Shown here: piece after piece, positions 3,530 to 50,529 of the stretch
Layout: each line of letters starts with the position of its first letter
Numbering within the stretch: the stretch's first letter is position 1
NCBI GenBank assembly: GCA_024709105.1
Contig: JANJXJ010000016.1
Span: forward strand, 1 to 64,000
Source of the DNA: Lentimicrobium sp.
GTDB taxonomy: Bacteria > Bacteroidota > Bacteroidia > Bacteroidales > Lentimicrobiaceae
Length of the DNA: 64,000 nt
Reading direction: 5' to 3'
The notes under the pieces: generated by a model
Databases searched by the model: none
Seen by the model: the letters and a program-made list of their open reading frames with translations, nothing else
Told to the model about the DNA's origin: nothing
Translations under genes and position numbers: made by a program

Positions 3530-5029
3530 TTATATAAAAGCACCGCGCTGAGAATCTTTCCAGCGGCTTGCGGGTTTAACAATGGGTTCTGAAGACCTGG
3601 TTTTTTCTAGTTTTGCGCTATATTCAAGATACGATGCAATCAGCACAATATCTTCGCAAACGCCGTCGCACTCGGGTTTGGCAAAGAGGAAATCTTTGTT
3701 TTCTTCAATAAAATGCGTGGTGTATTTTCCGGTTTTAAAAGCTTCGGCTTCCATGATGCGCGCCAGAAAAGGAATTGACGTTTTTACACCTGTAATCTTG
3801 TACTCCTCAAGTGCCCGGCTCATTCGCCTGATGGCCTCATCGCGGTTTTTAGCCCAAACAATAAGTTTGGAGATCATGGGATCGTAATAGATGGGAATGG
3901 TGTAACCTTCGTAAACATAGCCATCGTGCCTGACTCCAAGTCCGAGAGGCTCAGTTATGTGTCTGATGGTCCCCGGGCTGGGCATAAAGTTGCGGTCGGG
4001 GTCTTCGGCATAGATGCGGCACTCAATGGCATGTCCGCTTTGTTTCAGGTCTTCCTGTTTAAAAGGCAGTTCAAAGCCATTGGCAATGTTCACCATTTCC
4101 TTCACCAGGTCAACACCTACAACACGCTCAGTTATAGGGTGTTCTACCTGAAGGCGGGTGTTCATTTCAAGAAAATAATAGTTTTGATTGTCGTCGGCAA
4201 TAAATTCAATGGTTCCTGCTCCATGATAGTTGCAGGCTTTTGCAGCAGCAACCGCATGGGCACCCATTTCGGCGCGTACTGCGGGGGTGAGCAGGGGAGA
4301 CGGAGTTTCTTCAATTACCTTCTGATGCCTGCGTTGAACAGAACATTCACGCTCGAACAGGTGCACTGCATTGCCATGTTTATCAGCAAGTATTTGAAAT
4401 TCAATATGGTGAGGAGATTCAATATATTTCTCAATGTAAACTGAATCATCGCCAAAAGCTGCTTTGGCTTCAGACCTGGCACCACGCAGAGAACTTTCGA
4501 TTTCCTCTTCTTTTTTAACCAATCGCATGCCTTTGCCTCCACCACCGGCCGAAGCTTTGATCATAACCGGCAAACCAATTTCACGAATAGTTTTGAGGGC
4601 TTCATCAAAATCGGTGATTTTGTCAACCGTTCCCGGTACTACCGGCACTCCGGCTGCAATCATGGTTTTGCGGGCGGTAATTTTATCGCCCATCTGCCTG
4701 ATGGCATCGGCGTTGGGGCCAATAAATTCAATGCCTTCTTTTTTGCATCTTTCTGAGAATGCTGCATTTTCCGACAAGAAACCGTATCCGGGATGAATGG
4801 CATCGGCTTTCGACTTTTTTGCCACTTCAATGATGCGGTCAATGTTCAGATAGCTTTCAACCGAAGGGGCAGGGCCAATGTGATAAGCCTCATCGGCATA
4901 GCGAACATGCATGGAAGAACGGTCGGCATCGGAATAAACTGCTACGGTGGGAATTCCCATTTCGCGGCACGAACGCATAATGCGTAATGCTATTTCGCCG
5001 CGGTTGGCAACAAGAACTTTTTTTATCAT
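3530..5029 (-). CDS. accC: biotin carboxylase subunit
   Basis: A 499-residue ATP-grasp biotin carboxylase. It starts MIKKVLVANRGEIALRIMRS, the typical N-terminal fold; the Gly-rich ATP loop (AGGGGKGMRL) is at residues 161-170, and the catalytic EMNTRLQVEH segment falls at 288-297, so E288, N290 and R292 match the usual numbering. It carboxylates biotin on the neighbouring carrier using ATP and bicarbonate. It is about 50 residues longer than free-standing E. coli AccC, as in acyl-CoA carboxylases. First gene of the operon; the carrier gene follows after 6 bp. Confidence 0.93.
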   Translation of the reverse strand: MIKKVLVANRGEIALRIMRSCREMGIPTVAVYSDADRSSMHVRYADEAYHIGPAPSVESYLNIDRIIEVAKKSKADAIHPGYGFLSENAAFSERCKKEGIEFIGPNADAIRQMGDKITARKTMIAAGVPVVPGTVDKITDFDEALKTIREIGLPVMIKASAGGGGKGMRLVKKEEEIESSLRGARSEAKAAFGDDSVYIEKYIESPHHIEFQILADKHGNAVHLFERECSVQRRHQKVIEETPSPLLTPAVRAEMGAHAVAAAKACNYHGAGTIEFIADDNQNYYFLEMNTRLQVEHPITERVVGVDLVKEMVNIANGFELPFKQEDLKQSGHAIECRIYAEDPDRNFMPSPGTIRHITEPLGLGVRHDGYVYEGYTIPIYYDPMISKLIVWAKNRDEAIRRMSRALEEYKITGVKTSIPFLARIMEAEAFKTGKYTTHFIEENKDFLFAKPECDGVCEDIVLIASYLEYSAKLEKTRSSEPIVKPASRWKDSQRGAFI

Positions 5030-5331
5030 AGAATATTTACTGGTAGTCTGCTCAATTTCAGGCGTTTTCTGGCCCGACCACTTAATAACAACAAAACCTG
5101 CCTTTTGTTAAATTAATATTAACATTTTAATTGAAAAGCCTGCTGCTTAAGTGTTTTTTACACCTGTCTAAACATGCAAATATATAAATATATGCATTTA
5201 AAAAACCATTTTTTTGAATCATTTATCAATTCTTAAGCCGATGGCCGGTATTGGTAAACGTAAGATGTTTGATATAAGCCGGTTAGGGCTGTGAGCAGTC
5301 TGATGATTTTTTATTCTGCAAATAAGGCTGA
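5030..5331. other. intergenic, no gene seen
   Basis: About 300 bp of AT-rich sequence between the carboxylase operon (its upstream side) and the end of the two-component cluster. A plus-strand CAAATATA at 5177-5184 would read TATATTTG on the minus strand, a possible -7 element for the carboxylase operon, but no -33 element at the right spacing is visible. Nothing else supported. Confidence 0.4.
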
Positions 5332-6813
5332 TTACACCTGTACCGGGAGTGTAAAAATAAACCGGCTTCCTTTTCCGGGTTCACTTTCAGCGTGAATAGT
5401 ACCATTGTGGCGTTCAACAAATTCATGACACAGAATGAGCCCTAATCCAGATCCTGCTTCTCCTTTGGTGCCTGAGGAAGTAAAGTTGGTGTCGACTTTA
5501 AATAGTTTTTCAATTTTTTCTGAAGGAATTCCAACACCATTATCTGCAATGGTAATGGTTGCTATATTGCCGGATAAAATTGCAGATATTATTACTTCTC
5601 CGTTTTCGGGGGTAAACTTAATTGCATTTGAACAGATGTTTCTGACAATTGCATTTATCATGTTCTGATCGGCAAATACCTGCAGGTTTTCATCAACACG
5701 ATTAATCAGTGCAATATTTTTTTCTCTGGCGTTGGCCATAAGCAGCGAAAAAACTGAATTAACCAGATTGAATAACATGATGTTTGAAGGATGAAACTCC
5801 ATTCTTCCGGTTTGAAGTCTCGACCATTGCAACAATTTCTCAAGAAGATCAAAAGTATTCCTGCTAAGATCTTTAATCACTCCAATATATTCCTGTATCT
5901 CTTCTTTACTCAGGCTATCATATTCGTTGGATAAAATATCACTGAAAGCCATTAACCCGTTGAAGGGAGTTCTCAGATCATGAGCAATAATGGAGAACAT
6001 CTTATCCTTGCTGGCATTACTTTCGCGGAGTTTCTCAGAATATGATTTGATGGCTTCTTCTGAGAGTTTCTTTTCTGTAATGTCTTCTGATACTTTTATA
6101 TAACCAATTTGATGGTTGTCGTCATCATAAATAGGTGAAATTTTGGTTGACTCCCAGAATTCTTCTCCGTTTTTCTTGCGATGCCGGGTTGTGCCTTGCC
6201 AGCTCTTTCCCGAACCAAGAGTATTGATGATATCATCAACCACCTTTGTATCATTCAGAGTACCATGATGCTTAAACAGGTTTTCTGATTGTAATTCTTT
6301 TAATGAATACCCTGTTATTTCAGTAACTTTCGGATTTATATACTCAAGCTTCCCCTGATTATCGGTGATGATAAGCATACTTGGGCTTTGGTCCACTGCA
6401 ATGGATAGTTTTTTTAGCTTATAATCCGATAGTTTTTTTTGTAAAGAGCTTTCGATGATGATGGGAAGCATTTTCAAATGCCCGTACTCAACATCTTTGA
6501 TCAGATAGTCACTGGCCCCCATTTTTATGGCCTTAACTGCAACATCTTCGTCACCTGTGCCGGTAACCATAATTACAGGAACTCCTGTACTGATGATATC
6601 CGGAAGAAACTCAAACGAAGTCCCGTCACCCAACAGGAAATCGGAAATGATAATATCAAAATTGTTACCCGGGAAAATCTGCCTGGCTTCCTTTACCGAG
6701 CCTGCAAATGTTACCTGATAAGAAAGGTTGTGTTCTTTTACCAGACGTTTGAATGCCATCTGATCAACAACATCATCCTCAATGTAAAGAAGATTTATTT
6801 TTTCGTGATCCAT
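5332..6813 (-). CDS. REC-PAS-histidine kinase (hybrid sensor kinase)
   Basis: A 493-residue soluble signalling protein with no membrane segment. Domains in order: receiver (about 6-125, phosphoacceptor Asp58 in IIISDFLLGD), PAS (about 135-250, ending in the KVSEDITEKKL exit helix), HisKA dimerisation domain (phospho-His278 in FSIIAHDLRTPF) and HATPase (N-box RNICSNAIKF, DNGVGIP, GSGLGLI). The input is probably phosphotransfer to the receiver plus a PAS signal. It is the last of three minus-strand signalling genes, 12 bp after the single-domain regulator, so the three likely form one phosphorelay. Confidence 0.9.
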   Translation of the reverse strand: MDHEKINLLYIEDDVVDQMAFKRLVKEHNLSYQVTFAGSVKEARQIFPGNNFDIIISDFLLGDGTSFEFLPDIISTGVPVIMVTGTGDEDVAVKAIKMGASDYLIKDVEYGHLKMLPIIIESSLQKKLSDYKLKKLSIAVDQSPSMLIITDNQGKLEYINPKVTEITGYSLKELQSENLFKHHGTLNDTKVVDDIINTLGSGKSWQGTTRHRKKNGEEFWESTKISPIYDDDNHQIGYIKVSEDITEKKLSEEAIKSYSEKLRESNASKDKMFSIIAHDLRTPFNGLMAFSDILSNEYDSLSKEEIQEYIGVIKDLSRNTFDLLEKLLQWSRLQTGRMEFHPSNIMLFNLVNSVFSLLMANAREKNIALINRVDENLQVFADQNMINAIVRNICSNAIKFTPENGEVIISAILSGNIATITIADNGVGIPSEKIEKLFKVDTNFTSSGTKGEAGSGLGLILCHEFVERHNGTIHAESEPGKGSRFIFTLPVQV

Positions 6814-6825
6814 TGTTTAAGTCAA

Positions 6826-7236
6826 CTAGGGCAATTCACTCAAAGACCAGTAAAGTTTGATGGCTTTGATAACTTCGACAAATTGTTTATAATCCACAGG
6901 TTTAACCATATAACCTGCAACGCCCAGGTTAAAAGTATCCACCCGGTCCATTTCCTCCAGAGAGGTGGTAAGCACGATTACAGGAATATGTTTCAGGTTG
7001 TCGTCGTTTTTGGCAATTTTCAGAAACTCAATGCCATTCATTCTGGGCATGTTCAGGTCAAGTAAAATAATACCGGGGAATTCGTTTTTTTCATCCCTCA
7101 GATATTCAAGCGCTTCTTCTCCGTTTTCAACACTCAACACAGGATTGATTACATTCAGTTCCCTGAGAGCCCTTTTAACGGTCATGGCGTCAATCATGTC
7201 GTCCTCAACCAAAAGAATGGGTTTGTTTTTAAGCAT
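6826..7236 (-). CDS. single-domain response regulator
   Basis: A 136-residue stand-alone receiver domain: acidic pair EDD at 11-13, phosphoacceptor Asp60 in IILLDLNMPRMNG, conserved Thr90 and Lys112 in GYMVKPVD. There is no output domain, so it works as a phosphate relay or by protein contact. It resembles the small regulators paired with phytochrome-like kinases. It lies between the two kinases with 19 and 12 bp gaps and is almost certainly co-transcribed with them. Confidence 0.92.
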   Translation of the reverse strand: MLKNKPILLVEDDMIDAMTVKRALRELNVINPVLSVENGEEALEYLRDEKNEFPGIILLDLNMPRMNGIEFLKIAKNDDNLKHIPVIVLTTSLEEMDRVDTFNLGVAGYMVKPVDYKQFVEVIKAIKLYWSLSELP

Positions 7237-7255
7237 TTAAAAGTTGTTTAACAGG

Positions 7256-8941
7256 TTATTTAAGAATTGTAAAGGTAAAGGTTGTTTGCTCTCCGGGTAT
7301 TGAAGACACAGAAATTTTTCCTCCGTTGCTTTCAATGATTTTTTTAACAATGGTAAGGCCTATTCCTGTACTTTCAAACTCGTCGCGCGCCTTTAGTGTC
7401 TGGAAAATCTGAAAGATCTTCTCAAAATATTTTTCTTCGATTCCGGGGCCGTTATCAGTAATTGAAATTGCCCAGTCGTGTTGGTTTTCAGCACAACGGA
7501 TTTCGATAATCCCGGTATCTTTGTTGTTGTATTTCACAGCATTGCTGATCAGATTCTGGAAAATCTGAAGCAAACGGGTTGGGCCGTATTTAACAACCGG
7601 AAGATTTTCATCCGCAATTACAGTGAATTTTTCGGGTGGTGATACCATTTCAATGGCTTCCTTCACCAACTTATTGAGGTCAATGGTTTCTTTTTCTTCT
7701 TTAACCCTGCTCACCCTTGAATAGGCAAGCACACCTTCTATAAGATTCTGCATCCGGTGTACACGGCTCAGCAACAGGTCGAGTTGCATGCGTCCGTCAT
7801 CATCGAGTTTATCGTGATAATCGGTGTGAATCCATTGGGTTATTGATCCAATCGCTCTGAGTGGTGCTTTCAGGTCGTGGGAAACGATGTAGGCAAAATC
7901 TTTCAGTTCCTTGTTTGCAATGTCGAGTTCGTTGATGAGTTTTTCTTTCTGGGCCTCGGTTTTTTTGCGCACCTCAATTTCCATTTCCAAGGATTCCTGC
8001 TGCTCAAAGTATTCCTCAATCATTTGCCCGATTTTATGAAACTCACTTCTGAGCATTCCCAGTTTCAGCCTGTCGGTGCTGCTTCGGCTGGCAAGAGCAG
8101 ATGATATTGTTGATAAAGGTTTCTTCACCAGGAAGTTAAATGACATGAAGAAAATAGCCAGTATAACGATGACCATTCCTGCAAGAAAATAGGTAGAAAA
8201 ACGGGATAGCTTTTTAAAGACTTTAATAAACTCATAATTTCTGCTCAGCCTGACCCACGAAACTGTATTTCCCTGCCAGTCATTCAGAGGGTATTCAACC
8301 ACAATTTCATCACCTTGCGGAGAATCGTCCGGAGTTATTTTTTCAATGATATTTATTTTTCCTTCGGTGAGTTGATTTACACTTTCAATCCAGGCTGAAT
8401 CGAGCAGTTTTCCAACAAAGAAATACCCATAGGCTTCTTTTTCGCGGGCTTCATCGTTGCTGCCGTGCATGGTAGCTGCATGAACTTCAAGTATTCCATA
8501 CACAGTTTTTAAGTAAAAAAGGGCAATTTTCTTTTTCATCACTTCATCAAACATGCCCTTGGGTATTTCTGCAAAAGGCGGAATGGTATCTTTTATAAAT
8601 GCAGAGGCAAAAATTGATTCCTGCCTGAGGTTAAACATCCAAACAACATTTGCACCAAATGAACTGAAAAGTGTTTTAAGGTTGTCGTCAGCAAACAGCG
8701 GATCGGGAGCTTGCAAATAATTCACCAGATCGTCCCAGTAAGTATAATCATATACGGTACGGCCTATAACCTCAGACCTTGCTTCAATTGCAGTTTCAAG
8801 TATTTTTTGCTGCTGAGCTTCTCCTGATGATAAGAGTATTGACGTTTGGCGTTTCTGAATATCCAGAATAATCAGGAATCCGGCAAACATAATCATTGCC
8901 GAGATCACCAGAATGATCAGAAGCTTATTTTGAGTTTTCAT
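7256..8941 (-). CDS. CHASE4-domain sensor histidine kinase
   Basis: A 561-residue membrane kinase. TM1 is about residues 8-27 and TM2 about 251-272; between them lies a periplasmic CHASE4-type sensor domain with the typical YDYTYWDDLV motif near residue 64. After TM2 come a HAMP-like stretch, a coiled coil (about 305-348), HisKA with phospho-His355 (DFAYIVSHDLKAPLRAI) and HATPase (NLISNAVKYN, DNGPGIEE, GIGLTIVKKI). The signal is unknown. First gene of the three-gene cluster; no receiver of its own, so the adjacent single-domain regulator is its probable target. Confidence 0.9.
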   Translation of the reverse strand: MKTQNKLLIILVISAMIMFAGFLIILDIQKRQTSILLSSGEAQQQKILETAIEARSEVIGRTVYDYTYWDDLVNYLQAPDPLFADDNLKTLFSSFGANVVWMFNLRQESIFASAFIKDTIPPFAEIPKGMFDEVMKKKIALFYLKTVYGILEVHAATMHGSNDEAREKEAYGYFFVGKLLDSAWIESVNQLTEGKINIIEKITPDDSPQGDEIVVEYPLNDWQGNTVSWVRLSRNYEFIKVFKKLSRFSTYFLAGMVIVILAIFFMSFNFLVKKPLSTISSALASRSSTDRLKLGMLRSEFHKIGQMIEEYFEQQESLEMEIEVRKKTEAQKEKLINELDIANKELKDFAYIVSHDLKAPLRAIGSITQWIHTDYHDKLDDDGRMQLDLLLSRVHRMQNLIEGVLAYSRVSRVKEEKETIDLNKLVKEAIEMVSPPEKFTVIADENLPVVKYGPTRLLQIFQNLISNAVKYNNKDTGIIEIRCAENQHDWAISITDNGPGIEEKYFEKIFQIFQTLKARDEFESTGIGLTIVKKIIESNGGKISVSSIPGEQTTFTFTILK

Positions 8942-16834: not shown

Positions 16835-16910
16835 CAGAGTGCTTCAGTGAACTGGCTTTTTGCGAAAAGACCAGCAGATTTTCTTTAACCTTTACCTCAA
16901 GTTTTTAATA

Positions 16911-19289
16911 ATGAAATTTTTTGCAACGGCAGTTGTAATGCTGATGCTGTCGTTTTCTGCAGCGTTCAGCCAACAAAAGTTTGAGCTTGGCGGGCAAGTA
17001 TTTTCGTCCGAAAGCAAGCCATTGGCGGGTATTAATGTCAGGTTGGAAAACAGTTCAGCAGGCGGTGTTACTGACAAAACAGGGCGTTTTACGCTGGGCT
17101 TTTTCCCGGAAGGAGATTACCATATTACAGTTTCTGCAGTGGGTTTTGAAACCCAAAAAGTAAATGTAACTTTAAAAAGTGACACCAGCCTGAAAATCAT
17201 ACTTTTACCTGCGGTAGTGACATTGGCTGAGGTTTCCATTCATGGGGATTACCACAATTACCGGCGTTCGGGCGATTCACGAGCTGTGGAAATAGTAACC
17301 GATGAGTTTTTACGTAAAAACTTGTCAGGCAGCCTGATGAAGACATTAGACCGGCTTCCCGGGGTAAGTTCCATGTCCATAGGATCGGGGCAATCCAAAC
17401 CTGTGATCAGAGGGATGAGTTTTAATCAGGTGATAGTTGCTGAAAACGGAGTTAAACACGAAAGTCAGCAATGGGGTGCCGACCATGGTATAGAAGTAGA
17501 TCAGTTTGCTGTGGAAAGGGTGGAAGTAATCAAAGGGCCCGCTTCTCTCATGTATGGATCGGACGCCATTGCCGGGGTGATTGACCTGAAACAGTCTTTT
17601 GTGCCCGAACCTGGTGAAACTGGCGGCGATATCACGCTGAGCGGACAAACCAACAATATGCAGGCAGCGGCTTCTTTAGGGTTTTATACACGAAAAAACC
17701 AGTGGTGGGCAAAAGCCCGGTTTACTGCCATTGATTATGCCGATTATCAGATTCCTGCTGATAGTGTTGAGTATTATTCCTATTACTTCAGGCTTAAGGA
17801 CAGGAAATTGCGGAATACAGCAGGAGAGGAGAAAAACGGAAATATTGCCCTGGGTTATATTTCCGGGAAGTTCAATTCTACCCTTTTTGTTAACAATACA
17901 TTTTCAGAGAGTGGCTTCTTTGCCAATGCCCACGGGCTCGAAATCCGCAACTCTCAGATTGATTACGACCGCAGCAACCGCGATACTGATCTTCCCATGC
18001 AACAGGTAAATCACCTGAAAATGCACTGGAAAAATTCATGGCAACAAACAGGATTTACCCACCGTTTGGACATTGCATGGCAGCACAATAACCGCAAAGA
18101 GTTTTCGGAAGCGGTGGAACATGGTTACATGCCAAAACCATCCGATAGTCTTGAACGCAAATTTGTAAAACAAACCTGGTCGCTGGCTTATGCTGTGCAA
18201 AACCGTGAATCTGCTGCGGTGAAGCTTTCTGCCGGTGTCAACGCCGAGCATCAGCACAACATTTCAGAAGGGTGGGGATTCATTCTGCCTTCTTACAAAC
18301 GGAATACAGCTGGAGTTTTTCTGCTCGGGGAAACAAAACCATCAGAGAAATGGCTGGTTTTGGCCGGTTTGCGCATGGATGCGGGGTCAGTGATCATTGA
18401 GGATTATTTCGACTGGTTTCTCAGCCCTGTTGACGAAAATGATACAAACCGGATATTTAAACAGCGGGCTTTTGCAAATTCGCCTGATTTCAGTCACCTG
18501 AGTGGTTCGGCCGGCTTTGTTTACAAGTCGGGGAGCATGGTGCTGAAAACCAATCTGGGGAATAGTTTCAGACTACCGCTGGCCAAAGAGCTGGCTTCGG
18601 ATGGAGTAAATTACCACATGTACCGTTTTGAAAAAGGCAATCCGCAACTTAAGCCAGAAACAGCCTGGCAATTGGATGCAGGCATTGAAATTAACCGGTT
18701 GAGGTGGGCTGCTGAAGTTTCTCCTTTTATCGCATGGTTTCCTTCCTACATTTATCTGAATCCAACCTCTGCATATTATGAAGGACTGCAGATATTCAAC
18801 TATACCCAAACAGAAGTGATGCGGGCTGGCGGAGAATTTCATCTGCATTATACTATCCTCAGGGAACTGAAGATCGGGGCAATAGGGGAGTATGTGTGGT
18901 CGCAGCAGATGTCGGGTGAAAAGAAAGGTTTCGGACTGCCTTTTTCGCCACCTGCATCTCTATTGCTTAATCTAAGTTGTCAGCCTGTAACGAAGGGAGT
19001 AATGTCTGATACCTGGATTTCTGTTGATTTTAAAATGGTTTCGGCCCAAAACAACATTGTACCTCCCGAAAAGAAAACCCCGGGGTATAATTTGCTGAAT
19101 GTTGGAGCTGGATCAACCCTGAAAGCAGGAAAACAATCGCTTGAAATCAATTTACGGATCACCAATTTATTGAATCGCCGGTATCTCGACCACACCGGTT
19201 TTTACAGACTAATTGAAGTTCCCGACCCGGGCCGCGGATTTCAAATTAGCCTCAGAATGCCTTTTAATATTAACTCTCAAAAACCTTAA
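16911..19289 (+). CDS. TonB-dependent receptor, probable zinc transporter
   Basis: A 792-residue outer-membrane receptor. ATG at 16911 is chosen because a signal peptide (MKFFATAVVMLMLSFSAAFS) follows directly. Then a carboxypeptidase-regulatory-like domain (about 25-105), the plug (about 125-240, with RLPGVSSMSIGSGQSKPVIRG split as RLPGVSSMSIG and SGQSKPVIRG, and VERVEVIKGPASLMYGSDA) and a C-terminal barrel ending in an aromatic-rich strand. Cargo is taken up with TonB energy. The plug contains GADHGIEVD, and the neighbours point to zinc, comparable to ZnuD-type receptors, but cargo is inferred from context. Confidence 0.9.
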   Translation: MKFFATAVVMLMLSFSAAFSQQKFELGGQVFSSESKPLAGINVRLENSSAGGVTDKTGRFTLGFFPEGDYHITVSAVGFETQKVNVTLKSDTSLKIILLPAVVTLAEVSIHGDYHNYRRSGDSRAVEIVTDEFLRKNLSGSLMKTLDRLPGVSSMSIGSGQSKPVIRGMSFNQVIVAENGVKHESQQWGADHGIEVDQFAVERVEVIKGPASLMYGSDAIAGVIDLKQSFVPEPGETGGDITLSGQTNNMQAAASLGFYTRKNQWWAKARFTAIDYADYQIPADSVEYYSYYFRLKDRKLRNTAGEEKNGNIALGYISGKFNSTLFVNNTFSESGFFANAHGLEIRNSQIDYDRSNRDTDLPMQQVNHLKMHWKNSWQQTGFTHRLDIAWQHNNRKEFSEAVEHGYMPKPSDSLERKFVKQTWSLAYAVQNRESAAVKLSAGVNAEHQHNISEGWGFILPSYKRNTAGVFLLGETKPSEKWLVLAGLRMDAGSVIIEDYFDWFLSPVDENDTNRIFKQRAFANSPDFSHLSGSAGFVYKSGSMVLKTNLGNSFRLPLAKELASDGVNYHMYRFEKGNPQLKPETAWQLDAGIEINRLRWAAEVSPFIAWFPSYIYLNPTSAYYEGLQIFNYTQTEVMRAGGEFHLHYTILRELKIGAIGEYVWSQQMSGEKKGFGLPFSPPASLLLNLSCQPVTKGVMSDTWISVDFKMVSAQNNIVPPEKKTPGYNLLNVGAGSTLKAGKQSLEINLRITNLLNRRYLDHTGFYRLIEVPDPGRGFQISLRMPFNINSQKP

Positions 19290-39290: not shown

Positions 39291-39321
39291 TTGACTAACT
39301 AAAAATTTAGTTGTACATTTG
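39291..39321 (+). promoter_or_regulatory. promoter of the BlaI-M56 operon
   Basis: TTG (39291-39293), a 20-bp spacer and a perfect TACATTTG (39314-39321) form a strong Bacteroidota promoter. Start expected near 39328, leaving a leader of about 160 nt before the BlaI ATG. Confidence 0.7.
39297..39312. promoter_or_regulatory. BlaI-type operator 1
   Basis: AACTAAAAATTTAGTT is a perfect inverted repeat (7-bp arms, 2-bp centre) sitting between the -33 and -7 elements. Its arms share ACTAA/TTAGT with the operator 19 bp downstream, the pattern expected for a BlaI/MecI-family repressor. Confidence 0.7.
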
Positions 39322-39330
39322 TCATACTAA

Positions 39331-39350
39331 ATAACTAAAAACTTAGTTAT
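39331..39350. promoter_or_regulatory. BlaI-type operator 2
   Basis: ATAACTAA (39331-39338) and TTAGTTAT (39343-39350) form a perfect 8-bp inverted repeat with a 4-bp centre, extended on both sides (ATACTAA.../...TAGTAT) by an imperfect match. It lies at the predicted transcription start. Confidence 0.7.
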
Positions 39351-39489
39351 TAGTATTGACTTGTTAAGTTTGCTGTTCAGGTTCTCAATACATGAAGCCT
39401 GGCTGGCTTATAAGTCACGCAAAACCAGCACTTTGAACTTCTCCGTATTTCTGCCTGAACTGCGGAGAATTAAAACCAATCAATACACA

Positions 39490-39870
39490 ATGAAAGAATT
39501 AACACGAGCAGAAGAGCAGGTAATGCAGATATTGTGGCGCATAGGCAAGGGGCATGTAAACGATGTACTCGAACATTTTCCCGAGCCCAGGCCAGCCTAC
39601 AACACAGTATCTACCATTATCCGTATTCTTGAAAAAAAAGAATTTGTTGATCACGAAGCCATCGGCAAATCTCACCGTTACTTCCCCAAAGTGAGCAAAC
39701 GTGAATATACACGTTTTACCATGAAACAGATGCTTACCGGGTATTTCAGCAATTCTTACAAACAAATGGTATCATTTTTTGCAAATGACCAGGAGTTAAG
39801 CATCAGCGAAATGGAAGAGATCAGGCAATTGATGGAGAATCAGATCAATCAGAAAAAGAAAAAGATATGA
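39490..39870 (+). CDS. BlaI/MecI family transcriptional repressor
   Basis: A 126-residue winged-helix repressor. It starts MKELTRAEEQVMQILWRIGK, the canonical BlaI/MecI N-terminus, so ATG 39490 is used. The DNA-recognition part is PAYNTVSTIIRILEKKEFVD, then the wing EAIGKSHRYFPKVSKREYT, which contains the protease cleavage area in this family, and a C-terminal dimerisation helix. Its stop overlaps the M56 peptidase start by 4 bp. By analogy with BlaI-BlaR1, the partner relieves repression by signal-induced proteolysis; the operators at 39297-39350 are its likely sites. Confidence 0.92.
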   Translation: MKELTRAEEQVMQILWRIGKGHVNDVLEHFPEPRPAYNTVSTIIRILEKKEFVDHEAIGKSHRYFPKVSKREYTRFTMKQMLTGYFSNSYKQMVSFFANDQELSISEMEEIRQLMENQINQKKKKI

Positions 39871-42254
39871 CACCGTTATTTTTATATCTGCTCAAGGCTT
39901 CGGCCATACATGCCCTGCTGCTGGCATTCTATTATTTTGTCATCAGGCCGGGGCGGCGGTTTCACCTGATGCGTGCTGTTCTGGTATTGGCCATGCTGCT
40001 TCCGCTGCTGTTTCCGCTGCTTCCGCAACCGGCTGTAAAACAGGGTGAAGAAGTAATACCTCTTTACGTTATTGCTTTACCCGAAGTTACTCCCGAAATA
40101 ACAGTAAACGTGGAAAAAAGCAGCTGGTCAGTCAGCGACTGGTTATCATTAGGATATTTTTTAACTGCATCACTGCTCTCGGCAGGGCTGTTGCTTTCGG
40201 TGGCATCAGTGGTCAGGCGGCTGCGCAAAGCGGACTTTTCAATCACACCCTACGGAAAGGTTTATATTGATAATAAGGCCATCAGCCCGTTTTCGTTTTT
40301 TAAATGGGTTTTCTTTCCCAAAAATACGCTGCGGCGCGATGATGCCGACTTGCTGCTCAGGCACGAATTCAGCCATGTAGCTCATAAACATAGCATTGAC
40401 AGGTTATTGTCGGCTGGTTTCAGGGCATTTTTCTGGTTCAGCCCATTTGCTCACCTGAATTATAAATGGTTGTCGGAAGTGCATGAATATCAAGCCGATG
40501 CCGATGCCATCAATGCCAGCAGCGACCGGATTTCCTACACCCGGCTCATGGCCGAATGGTCAGGAATTTACACCGAAAATCAAATTGCTCATCCATTTAG
40601 TGCTCATCTTAAAAAACGATTTATTATGCTTAACCATTTTAAACCTGGCAAATTAAATTTTGCAGCCATTGTTGCAGGCCTTATGCTTGTAACTTCCGCC
40701 GTTGTGCTTACCTCCATGATTCAACCCGAAAATCACTTGAAGGGCAATCTGCTCGACAACAGTTTAACAGTAAGTGCTGATTCTGAGGTTACTGCCAACG
40801 CGAGTTCTGCAAATACAGAAGGTGAAACCATACTTTTAGCAGATGAAACTTCATTCCCTGCTGATCTCAACTCATTTAGCAATGGCGACACCAATCTGAT
40901 TCCGGCAGAATACCCCGGGGGAGAAGAAGCCAGAATCAGGTTCTTTACCAGTACGATAAGGTATCCGGCTGAAGCCAGAACCAGAAACATACAGGGTACC
41001 GTTTATTTTTCGTTTACCATTGATGCTGAAGGCAAAGTAGGTTCGTTAAAAATTGTGCGCGGAATAGGAGGGGGCTGCGACGAAGAAGTGCTTCGTGTGG
41101 CCGCACTTATGCCTGACTGGAAACCAGCGACCCGCAACGGTAAGGCAGTCGCCAGTTCAATGGTACTGCCGGTAAAATTTACTTTATCTTCAGGAAATGA
41201 GGACGAGAAAACAGTATTTACAGTTGTTGAAGAAATGCCCGAATTTCCCGGTGGCGATGAGGCTAAGGCCGCTTACATGAAATCTAAATTGTCCTATCCC
41301 GAATCAGCATTGAAAAGCAAGACAGAAGGAACAGTTTATATAACATTTGTTGTTGAAAAGGATGGTAGTGTAAATGATGTAAAGATTCTAAGAGGTGTAC
41401 ATCCCGATCTGGATGCAGCGGCAATGAAAGCCGTTATAGAGATGCCCGCCTGGAAACCCGGCAAACAGAGAGGCGAACCGGTGCGGGTTCAGTTTAATTT
41501 GCCTGTTAGGTTTAAGTTACCCGCCGAAAGTCAGAAACCTGTTAAGGAAGTCAAAAACTCCTCCATGGTGGATGGCCGCGAGGTATTCAATGTAGTTGAA
41601 GTACAGCCTGAATTTCCGGGAGGTATTGACGCATTGGTCAAATACCTGAAAGAGAAGAATGTATATCCTGAAAAAGCCAGACAGGAAAAAGTAGAAGGCA
41701 CTGTGTATATAAATTTTATTATTGAGGCAGACGGTAGTGTAAGCAATGCCAAATTGTTGCGGGGCATTGGTTCGGGTTGCGACGAGGTAGCCCTGGAATC
41801 AGTTAAAAACATGCCCGCCTGGAAGCCCGGTAAAAATAGGGGAGTTGCGGTTCCGGTATCCTTCAACATTCCCATTAAATTTACCCTTGACCCGTCTAAA
41901 CCTGCGAAAGAGCCAGAAATGCCTGAAAAATCGATGTATGGAGGGCGCGAGGTTTACAATAAAGTTGATGAAGCTCCTGTTTTTCCGGGTGGAAATGACG
42001 CTTTGCTGGCTTATTTCCGGAGTTTTGTTCCCGGAATCAGCTTTACAGGCCCGGAGGTAAGCGCTGACGTTTATTATGTAAGTTTGATTATTGAAGCTGA
42101 CGGTAAGGTGACCCCCGGCGGAATTTCCGGCAGCGAAAGCAAGCAGGTGAAAGAGCAGTTGATGTCAGCTGTAAAGGATATGCCGGACTGGAAACCTGGA
42201 AAAAAGGCTGGTAAAGCGGTTCCGGTAAGGGAGATATTGTTTCTGAAAAAATAG
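39867..42254 (+). CDS. M56 (BlaR1-like) metallopeptidase with four TonB C-terminal domains
   Basis: A 795-residue membrane protein. Hydrophobic helices at about 5-25, 35-53 and 92-112 flank the M56 zinc-peptidase domain with HEFSH at 166-170 and the later Glu in EVHEYQADADA (about 204-214). A further helix at about 264-285 takes the chain out of the cytoplasm. After a linker come four repeats with the TonB_C pattern FPGG...YP..A....GTVY..F.....G.V......RG....D......MP.WKPG at about 345-440, 450-550, 573-675 and 695-795. The last repeat is the most diverged. Translationally coupled to BlaI. It is probably a sensor-protease with periplasmic protein-contact domains; most relatives have one such domain. 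Confidence 0.9.
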   Translation: MTPLFLYLLKASAIHALLLAFYYFVIRPGRRFHLMRAVLVLAMLLPLLFPLLPQPAVKQGEEVIPLYVIALPEVTPEITVNVEKSSWSVSDWLSLGYFLTASLLSAGLLLSVASVVRRLRKADFSITPYGKVYIDNKAISPFSFFKWVFFPKNTLRRDDADLLLRHEFSHVAHKHSIDRLLSAGFRAFFWFSPFAHLNYKWLSEVHEYQADADAINASSDRISYTRLMAEWSGIYTENQIAHPFSAHLKKRFIMLNHFKPGKLNFAAIVAGLMLVTSAVVLTSMIQPENHLKGNLLDNSLTVSADSEVTANASSANTEGETILLADETSFPADLNSFSNGDTNLIPAEYPGGEEARIRFFTSTIRYPAEARTRNIQGTVYFSFTIDAEGKVGSLKIVRGIGGGCDEEVLRVAALMPDWKPATRNGKAVASSMVLPVKFTLSSGNEDEKTVFTVVEEMPEFPGGDEAKAAYMKSKLSYPESALKSKTEGTVYITFVVEKDGSVNDVKILRGVHPDLDAAAMKAVIEMPAWKPGKQRGEPVRVQFNLPVRFKLPAESQKPVKEVKNSSMVDGREVFNVVEVQPEFPGGIDALVKYLKEKNVYPEKARQEKVEGTVYINFIIEADGSVSNAKLLRGIGSGCDEVALESVKNMPAWKPGKNRGVAVPVSFNIPIKFTLDPSKPAKEPEMPEKSMYGGREVYNKVDEAPVFPGGNDALLAYFRSFVPGISFTGPEVSADVYYVSLIIEADGKVTPGGISGSESKQVKEQLMSAVKDMPDWKPGKKAGKAVPVREILFLKK

Positions 42255-42268
42255 TTTAACTGAATAAA

Positions 42269-42739
42269 ATGTATCGGAGTCGTTTCACTTTGATTTTTAT
42301 AATGCTGATTGCAGCAAGCAGTGTTTCGGCTGCCTGGCCCGGAATATTTAAAACCAACCGCTACAACAGCAACGGGCTTCGGCATGGCCGCTGGGTTTAT
42401 TACTGGAACGATACCACAAAAGTTCCCATGAACCGGCTGCGTTTTAAAAACGGCCGGGAATTCGGACTCAACCGGTATTACGACATCCATGGAAAAGTCT
42501 GGCTTAAGTTCAGGGCTGCTGCCGATGGCAGAATGAAAGTAACATATTATGATGAAAAAGGGCGCAAAGAAAAGTCAGGCAGAGCGTTGATGATTTATGA
42601 TCCTGCCGAAATCCGCTATTGCTGGCATGGGAAGTGGAAATTCTATGAAAACGGCAAATTGGTGAGAAAGGCTGTTTTTGAAATGGGAAACGAAAAAACA
42701 GCTGATACAGAACCCTCAGGGGAAGCGCTTAAAGAATAA
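42269..42739 (+). CDS. exported MORN-like repeat protein
   Basis: A 156-residue protein with a signal peptide (about 1-22, ending VSAAW) followed by MORN-variant-like repeats: YNSNGLRHGRWVYYWND, FKNGREFGLNRYYD, YYDEKGRKEKSG and CWHGKWKFYENGKLVRK. Such repeats are beta-hairpins that often sit at the cell envelope; function unknown. It begins 14 bp after the M56-TonB gene and is probably the third gene of that operon. Confidence 0.7.
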   Translation: MYRSRFTLIFIMLIAASSVSAAWPGIFKTNRYNSNGLRHGRWVYYWNDTTKVPMNRLRFKNGREFGLNRYYDIHGKVWLKFRAAADGRMKVTYYDEKGRKEKSGRALMIYDPAEIRYCWHGKWKFYENGKLVRKAVFEMGNEKTADTEPSGEALKE

Positions 42740-44922: not shown

Positions 44923-45475
44923 GTAGCGGTTATTATTCCTGGTGCAAATATAGTGCAGGTTGGCTGATTGGCACATCAGCAATCGGGTAAGTATGTATAC
45001 ATATAGAACAAAATTAACAGATTGTCCCTGATGCAGTTGTTTTGAATCCTTATGGCAACCGGGAATGGCTGGTGATGGAACTGAGCCAAAACTCGGGATG
45101 CACTGGCATATATAATCCCGGGGAAGAGGGTTTTGTTTAATTTATAAATGAGTTATAATTAACATTAAGCCAACAAAATGTGCAGCTATAGTATTTAGTT
45201 TAAAAGCAATTTTGAAACAGAATAACCCAAAGTAACAAGCATTATATCTCCGGACCATCTGTCGCAGCAAAAAAAATGCAATGAATCTTCAGTAAGTCAA
45301 ACATTTTACCCAAACACTTGTTTAAGCCATTGCCCGAAGAAATGCCAGTCTGAAACGATTTTTTTCTGAATGCACTCATAATTTGGTTTTGCAGTTAAAG
45401 CAAGCCTTATTTTTCCTATAATTGCAGTCCCGAAAGGGAAGTTTTATTATTTTAATATCGGTTTTAACAACTGGA
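44923..45475. other. intergenic upstream of the ATP synthase operon
   Basis: About 550 bp without a supported gene. It must hold the promoters of tadA and of the atp operon. A TATAATTG (45417-45424, one mismatch to TAnnTTTG) lies 52 bp before atpB but has no well-spaced TTG. A short open frame without ATG (45030-45140) is noted among the rejected items. Confidence 0.5.
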
Positions 45476-46579
45476 ATGAAGAAATTTTACCTGATTATTT
45501 TTCTGTGGGTTTTCTCCCTGCAAATGCCAAATGTTGCATTAGCCGTGGGTTCCGGCGAAAACTCCGGCCACGAAGAAGACTTCAATGCAGGAGTGATGAT
45601 TATCGATCACATTGTTGACAGTTATGAGTGGCACATTGCCAGCATTGGTCATACACACATTTCCATTCCCCTGCCGGTAATACTTCTCGATGAAGGAAAA
45701 CTGCATGTTTTTCTCTCCTCAAAGTTTCATCACGGACACGATGCTTACAAGGGATTTAAAATTGAAACTGCTCAAGGTACCAACCGGGGTAAAATTGTAA
45801 AAGTAGTTCCTGAAACTATGGAAACCGACCATGAAGCCGGTAAGCCCGTTGATTTATCCATTACCAAGAATGTGGTAGGAGTTTTTGTTAGTTTTACTGT
45901 CTTGCTGCTGGTTTTCTTTTCGGTAGCCAGGGCTTACAAACGCAATGCAGGCCACGCACCCAAAGGCCTTCAGTCGGTACTGGAGCCACTTATACTCTTC
46001 ATCCGCGACGAAATAGCAAAACCCTCTATTGGGAAACATTATGAGCGGTTTATGCCGTTTTTGCTCACCATGTTCTTTTTTATCTTTTTTACCAACCTCA
46101 TTGGTTTGATACCCATATTTCCGGGAGGAGCAAATGTAACCGGCAACATTGGAGTAACCATGGTGCTGGCGCTTTTCACGTTTTTTATGACATCATTCAG
46201 TGCCAACAAGTCGTACTGGCTGCATATTTTCAACACTCCCGGCGTTCCCTGGTGGCTTAAATTTCCGGTGCCACTTTTCCCTATAATCGAGATAACCGGA
46301 GCTGTGGTAAAGCCATTTGTACTGATGATTCGTTTGTTTGCCAATATTACAGCCGGTCACATCATTGTGCTGGGATTCATCAGTCTGATTTTTGTATTTG
46401 CCAAAATTAGTCCGGGCCTGGGCTATGGTGTATCGGTAGTATCGGTATTTTTTGCCATTTTTATCAGCCTGTTGGAGCTGTTGGTGGCATTTATACAGGC
46501 CTACGTTTTTACCCTTTTGTCGGCTTTGTATTTTGGTATGGCAACAGAAGAGCATGCACACGCAGGTGAGCACCACTAA
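45476..46579 (+). CDS. atpB: F-type ATP synthase subunit a
   Basis: A 367-residue subunit a. ATG 45476 is followed by a signal peptide (KKFYLIIFLWVFSLQMPN then VALA) and a His-rich periplasmic stretch of about 90 residues (EWHIASIGHTHISIPLP, KFHHGHDAYKGF), an extension typical of Bacteroidota. The membrane part keeps the key Arg in MIRLFANITAGHI and the last helices facing the c-ring. It forms the proton path at the a-c interface. First gene of atpB-E-F-H-A-G. Confidence 0.93.
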   Translation: MKKFYLIIFLWVFSLQMPNVALAVGSGENSGHEEDFNAGVMIIDHIVDSYEWHIASIGHTHISIPLPVILLDEGKLHVFLSSKFHHGHDAYKGFKIETAQGTNRGKIVKVVPETMETDHEAGKPVDLSITKNVVGVFVSFTVLLLVFFSVARAYKRNAGHAPKGLQSVLEPLILFIRDEIAKPSIGKHYERFMPFLLTMFFFIFFTNLIGLIPIFPGGANVTGNIGVTMVLALFTFFMTSFSANKSYWLHIFNTPGVPWWLKFPVPLFPIIEITGAVVKPFVLMIRLFANITAGHIIVLGFISLIFVFAKISPGLGYGVSVVSVFFAIFISLLELLVAFIQAYVFTLLSALYFGMATEEHAHAGEHH

Positions 46580-46625
46580 GAATTTTTAAAGTTAATTTTT
46601 TGATTCATCCTTAAACCAAACAATT

Positions 46626-46886
46626 ATGACAATTTTATCAGTACTTCTGCAGGCAGCAACTGATCTGGCCCCATTGGCCAAGATGGCTGCCGCTTTCGGC
46701 GCAGGAATCGCCGCAATTGCCGCTGCATTTGGTATCGGCAACATCGGCCGTGCAGCACTTGAATCCATTGCACGCCAGCCCGAGGCTTCAGGAGACATCA
46801 GGTCAAACATGATTGTATCGGCTGCTCTTATCGAGGGAGTTGCCTTCTTTGCCATCGTGGTTTGTCTGCTTATCCTGTTCATCTGA
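46626..46886 (+). CDS. atpE: F-type ATP synthase subunit c
   Basis: An 86-residue two-helix proteolipid with the polar loop ARQPEASGD and the ion-binding Glu in ALIEGVAFF of helix 2. The residues that mark sodium-binding c subunits (Gln in helix 1 and a Ser/Thr pair next to the Glu) are absent: helix 1 has Ile at that place and Gly-Val follow the Glu, which favours protons. A strong hairpin sits directly behind the gene. Confidence 0.93.
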   Translation: MTILSVLLQAATDLAPLAKMAAAFGAGIAAIAAAFGIGNIGRAALESIARQPEASGDIRSNMIVSAALIEGVAFFAIVVCLLILFI

Positions 46887-46896
46887 TTTAAAGCAG

Positions 46897-46940
46897 AAAA
46901 AGCTTCCGGTTCAACGGTTGGTTGCGCCGGCAGCTTTTTT
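46897..46940 (+). terminator. hairpin between atpE and atpF
   Basis: AAAAAGCT (46897-46904) pairs with AGCTTTTT (46932-46939), with an inner CCGG/CCGG pairing after one mismatch, 11 bp behind the atpE stop. It looks like a partial terminator or a stabilising 3' end that could raise subunit c yield over the rest of the operon. Confidence 0.55.
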
Positions 46941-46974
46941 AAACTGAAACAGTCATTAAACTAAAAGGAACAAT

Positions 46975-47469
46975 ATGGAATTGGTAAATCCCGGAATTGG
47001 TCTCATTTTTTGGATGGCCCTTTCGTTTGGGTTGCTGTTGTTTATCCTCGGCAAATTTGTGTGGCCTCCCATTATGAAGGCATTGCACGAACGCGAAAAA
47101 AATATCGAACTGGCACTTCACGAAGCCGATAAGGCCCGCGAAGAGATGAAACAGCTTATGTTCACCAACGAGCAAATGATGCTCGAAGCCAAGGAAGAGC
47201 GCGATAAGCTTATCGGAGAAGCCCGTCAAATAAGGGAATCATTGATTGAGGAAGCCAGAGCCAAAGCTGCTGAAGAGGCCTCGCGCATGATAGAAAATGC
47301 AAGAGAACGCATTCATTTTGAGAAACTTGCTGCCATAACCGAGCTCAAAAACCAAATCGCAAACCTGTCAATCGAAATTGCAGAAAAGGTGCTGAAAAAA
47401 GAACTTTCAGACCCTGCAAAGCAGGAAGAAATGGTACGTGAATCGCTCAAAGAAATCAATCTCAATTAA
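46975..47469 (+). CDS. atpF: F-type ATP synthase subunit b
   Basis: A 164-residue subunit b: one N-terminal membrane helix (about 8-28, IFWMALSFGLLLFILGKFVW) and a long charged coiled coil (about 35-160) that forms the peripheral stalk. Follows atpE after 88 bp, a gap filled by the hairpin, and is 5 bp before atpH. Confidence 0.92.
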   Translation: MELVNPGIGLIFWMALSFGLLLFILGKFVWPPIMKALHEREKNIELALHEADKAREEMKQLMFTNEQMMLEAKEERDKLIGEARQIRESLIEEARAKAAEEASRMIENARERIHFEKLAAITELKNQIANLSIEIAEKVLKKELSDPAKQEEMVRESLKEINLN

Positions 47470-47474
47470 ATCAA

Positions 47475-48032
47475 ATGAATAATCCAAGGGTAAATATTCG
47501 TTATGCACAGGCGCTTTTCGACCTGGCCATCGAACGAAACGAAATAGAAGAAGCCCGCAGGGACATGAAACTGATTGCAACAGTTTGCAGTCAGAACGAA
47601 GATTTAATTTCGATGCTGAAAAGCCCGGTAATCAACAGCGATAAAAAAACAGGGGTAATCCGTCAGTTGTTTGGAAATCAGATCAGCAAACTGTCATTAA
47701 GTTTTGTGGAAATCATTATCCGCAAAAGAAGAGAAGCGCATCTTTATCCGATAGTAAGCACTTTTGAGGATTTGTACCTTGATTACCGAAAAATAATAAA
47801 GGCAACAGTAACTTCGGCTGAGCCACTTTCGGCGGGAGCACGCGAAAGCCTGCTTCAATTGCTTGAAAGTCAATCCGAATCAAAAATTGTGTTGTCGGAG
47901 GTGGTTGATCCGTCCATTCTTGGAGGTTTGATAGTAAAAGTAAAAAATCAGTTGTTCGACGACAGCATAAAGCAGAAACTTCAGTTACTGCGCAAAGAAT
48001 TTAATGTTAACACTTACATCAGAGAATTTTAA
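47475..48032 (+). CDS. atpH: F-type ATP synthase subunit delta
   Basis: A 185-residue delta subunit (OSCP): N-terminal helical bundle ([15 protein letters not shown], about 5-105) and the C-terminal motif [20 protein letters not shown] near residues 145-165. It joins the b stalk to the alpha3beta3 head. Eleven bp before atpA. Confidence 0.92.
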
Positions 48033-48043
48033 ACTGGAAACCA

Positions 48044-49627
48044 ATGGCAGAAATTAAACCTGCAGAAGTATCGGCAATATTGCGGCAACAGCTTGCCGGG
48101 TTCAGCACACAGGCTGAGCTTGAAGAAACAGGAAGTGTTTTACAGGTGGGTGATGGAATTGCCCGCGTTTATGGCCTCACCCATGTGCAGGCTGGCGAAC
48201 TTGTTGAATTTGCAACCACAGGAGTAAAAGGTATAGTTCTGAATCTTGAAGAAGACAACGTTGGAGTGGTTATGCTCGGCGAATCTTCCTCCATTAACGA
48301 AGGTGATCTTGTGCGCCGTACCAGGCAAATTGCTTCAATTCCGGTTTCTGAGGGTATGCTGGGCAGGGTCATCAACACCGTTGGTGAGCCCATTGATGGC
48401 AAAGGCCCGTTACTGGGAGAGGTTTTTGAAATGCCACTCGAGCGAAAAGCTCCCGGGGTAATTTTCCGTCAGCCCGTAAATGAGCCGCTTCAAACCGGTA
48501 TCAAAGCCATTGATGCTATGATCCCCATAGGCCGCGGTCAGCGGGAGTTGATCATCGGCGACCGGCAAACCGGTAAGACCGCCATTGCTATTGATACCAT
48601 TCTCAATCAGAAAGAGTTTTTCGATAAAGGTGAGCCGGTTTATTGCATTTATGTTGCCATTGGACAGAAAGGCAGCAACGTTGCCAATATTGTACAGACT
48701 CTTGAGCAAAAGGGTGCCATGCAATATACAGTGGTTGTGGTTGCTACTGCCAGCGATCCTGCTGCCATGCAGTTTTATGCACCATTTGCAGGTGCTGCCA
48801 TTGGGGAATATTTCCGCGATACAGGACGTCCGGCCCTCATTATTTATGATGATCTTTCGAAGCAGGCTGTAGCTTACCGCGAAGTGTCGCTGCTGCTTAG
48901 ACGCCCTCCCGGACGTGAAGCTTATCCCGGAGATGTTTTCTATCTGCACTCTCGTTTGCTTGAAAGAGCTGCCAAAATCATCAGTTCCGATGATATTGCT
49001 AAAAACATGAACGACCTTCCCGAAAGTCTGAAAGGTAAAGTTAGAGGCGGTGGTTCGCTTACGGCACTGCCTATCATTGAAACACAGGCGGGCGACGTTT
49101 CTGCCTATATTCCCACAAACGTTATTTCAATTACCGACGGGCAGATTTTCCTTGAAAGTAATTTGTTTAACTCCGGAATCAGGCCGGCGATTAATGTTGG
49201 TATTTCAGTGTCGCGCGTTGGAGGCAATGCTCAGATTAAACCTATGAAAAAAGTGGCCGGGACTCTGAAACTTGACCAGGCTCAATATCGCGAACTGGAA
49301 GCTTTTGCCAAGTTTGGCTCAGATCTCGATGCAGTTACCAAATCCATTCTTGACAAAGGTGCACGCAACGTTGAAATTCTGAAACAGGCGCAGTATTCTC
49401 CGCTTCCTGTAGAGCAGCAGATTGCAATTATTTATTGCGGGTCAAAAGGTCTGCTGCAGAAAATTCCAATGAAAAATGTTCATAATTTTGAAGTGGAGTT
49501 TTTACACCGTTTGGAAGATACCCGCCCTGCTTTGCTTGAAAGCCTGCGCAAGGGAGCGTATACTCCTGAAATTGAGAAAGAACTGGAAGAAGCTGCACGC
49601 GAACTGGTGCGGAAATATGAAGTTTAA
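48044..49627 (+). CDS. atpA: F-type ATP synthase subunit alpha
   Basis: A 527-residue alpha subunit with beta-barrel N-domain (about 28-95), Walker [12 protein letters not shown] near residue 170, [21 protein letters not shown] (split as [14 protein letters not shown] and DVFYLHS) and the C-terminal helical domain. It holds the non-catalytic nucleotide sites. The catalytic beta subunit gene is not found in the window. Confidence 0.96.
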
Positions 49628-49644
49628 TCCTACATTTTTTCTTT

Positions 49645-50529
49645 ATGCCCAGTTTAAAAGAGGTAAGAACCCGAATCACTTCAGTAAAGTCAACGCAGCA
49701 GATTACCAGCGCTATGAAAATGGTGGCTGCATCAAAGTTGCGTAAAGCGCAGACCAGCATTCTGCAGCTGAGACCTTTTGCTGCACAGCAAAAGCTATTG
49801 CTTCAGCAACTTACTGCAGGGCTTGGGGATAAAACTCCAAATGTTTATGGCCGCGAACCCGAATCTGGTAAAGTATTATATGTGGTATTTTCTTCAAACA
49901 GGGGTTTGTGCGGAGCATACAACACCAATGTTATCAAACAAATGAATGCTTTATTGGCCCGGCACAGGATTGATAACAACATTCAGCATGTTTCACTGAT
50001 GACCATCGGGAAAAAAGTGAGCGAATTTTTTGCCCGTCAGCAGGTAAACATTGTTTCTTCGCACGATGAGCTATACGATCAGATGAGCTATGCAAAGGCA
50101 GTTGCAGTTGCCGAAGACCTCATGAAAAAGTTTGTTTCAGGAGAGTATGACCGTATACTTTTTGTTTATCACCAGTTCAAAAATGCTGTGGTTCAGAAGC
50201 TTCAGGTGGAACAATTTCTGCCGGTTGAAAGCCCTGAAAACGAAAACGGAGGAGCTCATCATGAAGTAGAGTATATTTTTGATCCTTCACGGACAGAAAT
50301 TCTCGAAGATTTGGTTCCACAGATTCTTAAAACACAGTTTTACAAGGCTTTGCTCGACTCATGGGCATCAGAACTGGGAGCCAGAATGACTGCCATGTCG
50401 CAGGCTACCGATAATGCTTCGGAATTGCTTAAAGAACTCAGGCTTACCTACAACAAAGCAAGGCAAGCGGCCATTACCAAGGAGATTCTTGAAATTGTCG
50501 GAGGTGCCGAAGCATTGAAAAATTCGTGA
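49645..50529 (+). CDS. atpG: F-type ATP synthase subunit gamma
   Basis: A 294-residue gamma subunit: N-terminal helix RTRITSVKSTQQITSAMKMVAASK (split as RTRITSVKSTQQ and ITSAMKMVAASKL), the Rossmann-like middle (VVFSSNRGLCGAYN) and the conserved C-terminal helix (ARMTAMSQATDNA, RQAAITKEILEIVGGAEAL). It forms the central rotor shaft. It is the last atp gene here; atpD and atpC must lie elsewhere, as in other Bacteroidota. Confidence 0.95.
   Translation: MPSLKEVRTRITSVKSTQQITSAMKMVAASKLRKAQTSILQLRPFAAQQKLLLQQLTAGLGDKTPNVYGREPESGKVLYVVFSSNRGLCGAYNTNVIKQMNALLARHRIDNNIQHVSLMTIGKKVSEFFARQQVNIVSSHDELYDQMSYAKAVAVAEDLMKKFVSGEYDRILFVYHQFKNAVVQKLQVEQFLPVESPENENGGAHHEVEYIFDPSRTEILEDLVPQILKTQFYKALLDSWASELGARMTAMSQATDNASELLKELRLTYNKARQAAITKEILEIVGGAEALKNS

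Follow-up and report, generated by a model that had tools for sequence, protein, structure and literature searches.

Putative BlaI/BlaR1-type repressor-protease pair with a variable array of TonB C-terminal domains in Lentimicrobium

BlaR1 controls a beta-lactamase, and the TonB_C domain normally contacts outer-membrane transport proteins. One gene of Lentimicrobium sp. combines a BlaR1-type membrane protease with four consecutive TonB_C domains, which raises the question of what such a protein could sense and which genes would respond. The gene lies in a stretch of 64,000 nucleotides (contig JANJXJ010000016.1, positions 1 to 64,000 of the forward strand, hereafter the window). The original prediction, made from the letters of the window, described a BlaR1-type M56 sensor with four tandem TonB_C domains that might couple the state of the outer membrane to BlaI cleavage. 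From the analysis below we consider it probable that the locus encodes an autoregulated BlaI/BlaR1-type repressor-protease pair in which a variable TonB_C array takes the place of the penicillin-binding domain as sensor.

A BlaR1-type protease gene adjoining a BlaI-type repressor gene

The open reading frame at 39867-42254 (+ strand) begins with ATG and encodes 795 amino acids; its predicted limits were exact, and the architecture claimed for it is borne out by Pfam, which finds M56 and four TonB_C stretches, and by its recurrence in independent genomes. Peptidase_M56 matches residues 153-255 with 40.2 bits (cut-off 31), and homology to Staphylococcus aureus BlaR1 spans all four membrane helices, after which the TonB_C domains follow. 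The M56 membrane protease part comprises residues 1-290 (39867..40736, + strand), and a profile of the homologues' first 290 residues (A4; 1-283) matches residues 1-325 of the BlaR1 structure 8exp with an E-value of 1e-14. Its helices fall at about residues 3-26, 32-48, 92-121, and 265-284 in a low-confidence full-length AlphaFold model, which had three sequences as input and cannot be relied on for the membrane region (pLDDT below 50).

The HEFSH zinc motif (H166, E167, H170; 40362..40376, + strand) and the third zinc ligand E207 with D211 in an ExxxD motif (40485-40499, + strand) are invariant in 20 homologues, as are Y224, F244, and R251. In BlaR1 the site consists of H201-E202-xx-H205, E242, and D246, with Tyr261 and Arg294 nearby, and autocleavage occurs before Phe284, the P1' residue (PMC9834060). 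The histidine-to-glutamate spacing is 41 in the M56 protein and likewise in BlaR1 (H201/E242; PMC9834060). Profile alignment pairs F244 with the autocleavage residue Phe284 and K250-R251 with Arg293-Arg294; the position of BlaR1 D210 is occupied by H175, and an invariant D178 lies three residues on. With HExxH, a downstream ExxxD, and a protease part homologous over its length, the protein belongs to the BlaR1/MecR1 type of M56 and is predicted to be a zinc protease whose active site would face the cytoplasm. No penicillin-binding domain was found in it by Pfam and NCBIfam searches, and the NCBIfam BlaR1 model scored 12.5 bits against a cut-off of 400.

Immediately upstream, 39490..39870 (+ strand) encodes a BlaI/MecI/CopY-type repressor of 126 amino acids. 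Penicillinase_R covers its residues 4-116 (Pfam, E 6.4e-32), and it is related to the MecI/BlaI structures 1okr and 1sd4 (E about 3e-10 for MecI structures), with the winged-helix fold and the dimerisation region of that family. The stop codon of blaI and the start codon of the M56 gene overlap by 4 bp (ATGA), and the two genes are adjacent in 16 of 16 orthologues (blaI being incomplete in G017). BlaI and MecI are cleaved between Asn101 and Phe102 (PMC9834060); F97 of the window's BlaI aligns with this P1' Phe102 and hardly varies among 19 relatives. The P1' phenylalanine positions are conserved, and the M56 protein may cut both BlaI and itself.

Fourteen bp after the M56 gene, 42269..42739 (+ strand) encodes a small protein of 156 amino acids that appears to carry a signal peptide and shows faint MORN-like similarity (MORN_2, E 0.08, below the Pfam cut-off). 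The gene is kept beside most orthologues and is probably the third and last of the operon. A deaminase gene lies divergently upstream of the operon, and ATP synthase genes (atpB, E, F, H, A, G) occupy 45422-50529, about 3 kb downstream. Among the open reading frames beside the operon no ExbB/ExbD or receptor gene was recognised, and no beta-lactamase gene was recognised in or beside it; a TonB-dependent receptor gene is present in the window at 16860-19289.

The TonB_C array and its variable repeat number

Pfam recognises TonB_C in four stretches of the protein (204 bits, E 3.4e-61), three of which are picked up by NCBIfam tonB_Cterm. The domains, d1 to d4, occupy residues of about 345-442 (40899..41192), 450-552 (41214..41522), 573-676 (41583..41894), and 695-795 (41949..42251), all on the + strand, in agreement with the predicted limits of about 345-440, 450-550, 573-675, and 695-795. 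A profile from homologues recovers all four, with scores of about 117, 127, 127, and 78 bits. The last copy had been called diverged, and its low score and its placement in a clade of its own agree with this. Three sequence landmarks had been claimed for every copy, which holds for d2 and d3 (FPGG, GTVY, MPAWKPG) but not for d1, where two are altered (YPGG, GTVY, MPDWKPA), nor for d4, which has FPGG and MPDWKPG without GTVY. Pairwise identities among the four are 28-51%, so the copies are diverged repeats; an assembly artefact is ruled out by these identities and by the occurrence of the four-copy layout in independent genomes.

AlphaFold modelling, proposed with the original prediction, was informative for the array and poor for the membrane part of the full-length protein. 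The model of d3, computed with ten related repeats, reached a pLDDT of 93, and its best PDB matches were TonB C-terminal domains (top E 2.9e-5) from Helicobacter pylori, Pseudomonas (FoxA-bound), Neisseria, and E. coli, with no other fold convincing. The order of helices and strands is alike in all four domains of the full-length model, d4 included. Profile matches thus identify four TonB C-terminal domains, the d3 model fits TonB C-terminal domain structures, and the array is probably periplasmic. It has this fold in common with the TonB energy transducer, from which the protein differs in its four copies, in the M56 part that serves as anchor, and in the lack of a recognised ExbBD gene among the adjacent open reading frames.

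Purifying selection predominates in each repeat, d4 too (dN/dS about 0.06-0.24, with one outlier that has very few changes). Of four close pairs compared for d4, three give 0.10-0.15 and the fourth, where changes are very few, gives 0.41. A reading of d4 as a decaying remnant was rejected on the strength of this mostly purifying selection, its own clade, and its predicted fold.

The number of copies varies among relatives. Same-genus orthologues, 16 in number, carry one (G003), two (G002, G008), three (G004, G009, G011, G017, G018), or four (the window, G001, G005, G007, G012, G013, G014, G016). In 27 other genomes of the order, taking one best locus per genome, there are no copies in 6 (one of these loci being cut by a contig end), one in 14, two in 4, and three in 3. 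Across 26 genomes mostly of the wider class, some with long tails cut off, the counts are none in 19, one in 5, and two in 2. Among all 163 proteins collected, a set in which the genus and long open reading frames are over-represented, four copies occur outside the genus once (G484). The idea of four as a fixed, specialised number does not survive this count in homologues, which had been put forward as a test of the original prediction and goes partly against it, the number being variable. Four lies at the upper end of this variable range and is no special state.

The domain tree has few columns, hence only its supported forks were used. It contains a d1 clade of 13 rows (support 100/99) and a d4 clade of 8 rows (100/99) on a long stem. 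Repeats of the same gene are sisters in G018 (d2/d3), G057 (d2/d3), and G007 (d3/d4), and therefore duplication has been lineage-specific. Between G001 and G013 (loci L044 and L054), d2-d4 are nearly identical (dS 0.03-0.06) and the M56 part has a dS of 0.58; an exchange of the array between genomes by recombination seems to have taken place.

An operator pair and the predicted regulon

The predicted promoter of the operon (39291..39321, + strand) consists of TTGAC at 39291-39295 and a TAnnTTTG-type -7 element, TACATTTG, at 39314-39321, both kept in the same-genus orthologues compared. At this promoter the predicted operator, AACTAA-N4-TTAGTT, occurs in two copies 36 bp apart, with no strand assigned. 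Operator 1, TAACTAAAAATTTAGTTG (39296..39313), is conserved in orthologues and sits between the two promoter elements, as it does in the same-genus orthologues also; operator 2, TAACTAAAAACTTAGTTA (39332..39349), has perfectly palindromic half-sites. The spacing of 36 bp recurs in same-genus orthologues (34 in G002), and the second copy is imperfect in G007 and G008. In the window's genome they stand about 140 bp upstream of the blaI ATG, compared with roughly 10-20 bp in relatives of the same genus, and the leader from operator 2 to the ATG (39350-39489) is about 120 bp longer than theirs. Conservation of the pair supports a role for BlaI as the repressor that would bind it.

Operators 1 and 2 are the sole sites with one mismatch or less in the genome of 4.47 Mb. 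In 19 genomes of the genus there are 35 exact sites, 32 of them at this promoter and the others in G006 (two) and G012 (one). No BlaI/M56 pair was detected in G006; its two sites (contig C80, locus L125, 4031-4046 and 5057-5072) are identical and flank a Porph_ging (GLPGLI-type) gene by an outer-membrane-like gene. Neither an operator site nor a BlaI/M56 pair of this type was found in G010 and G015, incomplete genomes in which absence is uncertain. Sites with two mismatches number 18 in the window's genome against 128 for a reversed control; a wider regulon there was rejected, such sites being at or below chance, and an operator on the downstream ATP synthase operon was rejected also, no site being present. 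BlaI may still reach a wider regulon through degenerate operators. Similar sites occur near BlaI-M56 genes in other Bacteroidota, so this type of operator extends beyond the genus.

Because the operator stands almost exclusively in front of the M56 operon, expression of that operon is the output predicted. The regulon seems to be a closed autoregulatory loop of blaI, the M56 array gene, and the gene for the small secreted protein, and the suggested coupling of outer-membrane state to a wider response finds no support in this distribution. Of the new results, the operator pair, near-exclusive to the blaI-M56 operon, is the most useful.

Possible signals and relation to known systems

Architecture, homology, catalytic and cleavage-site residues, and the operator pair with its near-exclusive location were computed here, and around them the following sequence of events is proposed. 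BlaI dimers on the two operators would span the blaI promoter and keep the operon off; a signal at the periplasmic array would lead the cytoplasm-facing zinc protease to cleave BlaI before F97; and with BlaI cleaved the operon would be expressed, yielding more BlaI, more array protein, and more of the small secreted protein. The BlaR1/BlaI systems of Staphylococcus aureus and Bacillus licheniformis, and MecR1/MecI too, have in common with this locus a repressor gene adjoining the gene for a four-helix M56 zinc protease, the catalytic residues, the P1' phenylalanine in protease loop and repressor, and palindromic operators on the repressor's own promoter. They differ in that their sensor is a penicillin-binding domain, whereas here it would be the TonB_C array, the operator is AACTAA-N4-TTAGTT, and the predicted target is the operon alone, without a beta-lactamase. 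That the protein is a beta-lactam sensor like BlaR1 with extra domains is very improbable despite the homology to BlaR1 and BlaI; this reading was rejected: the Pfam and NCBIfam searches gave no penicillin-binding domain, neither the operon nor its neighbourhood has a recognised beta-lactamase gene, and the genome has no other operators.

M56 proteins with a single TonB_C domain in Bacteroidota resemble the window's protein in M56 type, in the fusion, in the BlaI-type gene upstream where examined, and often in operator type; the window's protein differs in its four copies, the highest number found, and in its diverged fourth. M56 proteins elsewhere in the phylum carry TonB_C, Plug, CarboxypepD_reg, or amidase modules, and therefore the periplasmic part is interchangeable. 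Those at loci L213, L217, and L227 combine TonB_C with Plug, CarboxypepD_reg, Amidase_3, or a type IX sorting tail, and at L060 (G040:C11) three tandem M56-TonB_C genes behind one BlaI gene are followed by a three-TonB_C protein without M56. In the window's own genome (L131, G000:C227) a 406-aa protein (3639-4856) ends in TonB_C, has an anti-sigma-like cysteine motif, adjoins a sigma-factor-like gene (4863-5453), and is possibly a second TonB_C-bearing signal transducer; on the same contig, 6593-8902 encodes a VIT/VWA protein with a terminal TonB_C domain.

Binding of TonB boxes, or of other partners of TonB in the periplasm, by the array is a guess with which the fold is compatible. A tentative refinement of the preferred reading, on balance doubtful, has the TonB_C domains bind the TonB boxes of receptors, with occupancy or pulling setting protease activity. 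The fold fits TonB C-terminal domains, some of them solved bound to receptors, and the receptor modules Plug and CarboxypepD_reg on other Bacteroidota M56 proteins, some alongside TonB_C, point the same way; however, the operon contains no receptor or ExbBD gene, the repeat number is not conserved, and the VIT/VWA protein and the sigma-factor-like gene's neighbour are unrelated proteins to which the same genome fuses TonB_C, so the presence of the domain does not prove TonB-box binding. We give about the same modest credence to the repeats being an element of length or avidity, spacers or dimerisation domains whose copy number drifts near-neutrally through inter-repeat recombination. The range of one to four copies within a genus, the recent in-gene duplicates in G018, G057, and G007, and the apparent swap of the array between genomes argue for this, but every repeat is mostly under purifying selection (with the one outlier) and d1 and d4 stay distinct clades.

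The operon could also be its own effector, the induced TonB_C modules competing with TonB for receptors in the periplasm as a regulated decoy, assisted by the small secreted protein. No further target gene is predicted and the operator is almost exclusively at the M56 operon, which speaks for this, but judging by sequence the array remains fused to the protease, and we regard the proposal as unlikely. A slightly more unlikely extension would make the membrane-tethered array both the sensor and the sole effector of an autoregulated loop, competing with TonB for receptors, its length tuned between species by duplication and loss of repeats.

We thus return to an autoregulated BlaI/BlaR1-type pair with a TonB_C array as its probable sensor. 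BlaR1-like signalling with such an array is a genuine variant, of an ordinary kind and apparently unstudied. M56-TonB_C proteins are numerous in Bacteroidota; in the open literature searched, whose coverage is incomplete, no relevant paper on M56 with TonB_C, on tandem TonB domains, or on the signal or target of such proteins was found, and a BlaI/M56 pair appears merely in Porphyromonas gingivalis tables (PMC10470040). The suggestion that the system is undescribed is therefore plausible. The operator pair and its near-exclusive regulon yield a directly testable prediction, and the copy numbers of one to four that occur naturally in a single genus offer a ready experiment on the role of TonB_C arrays in sensors.
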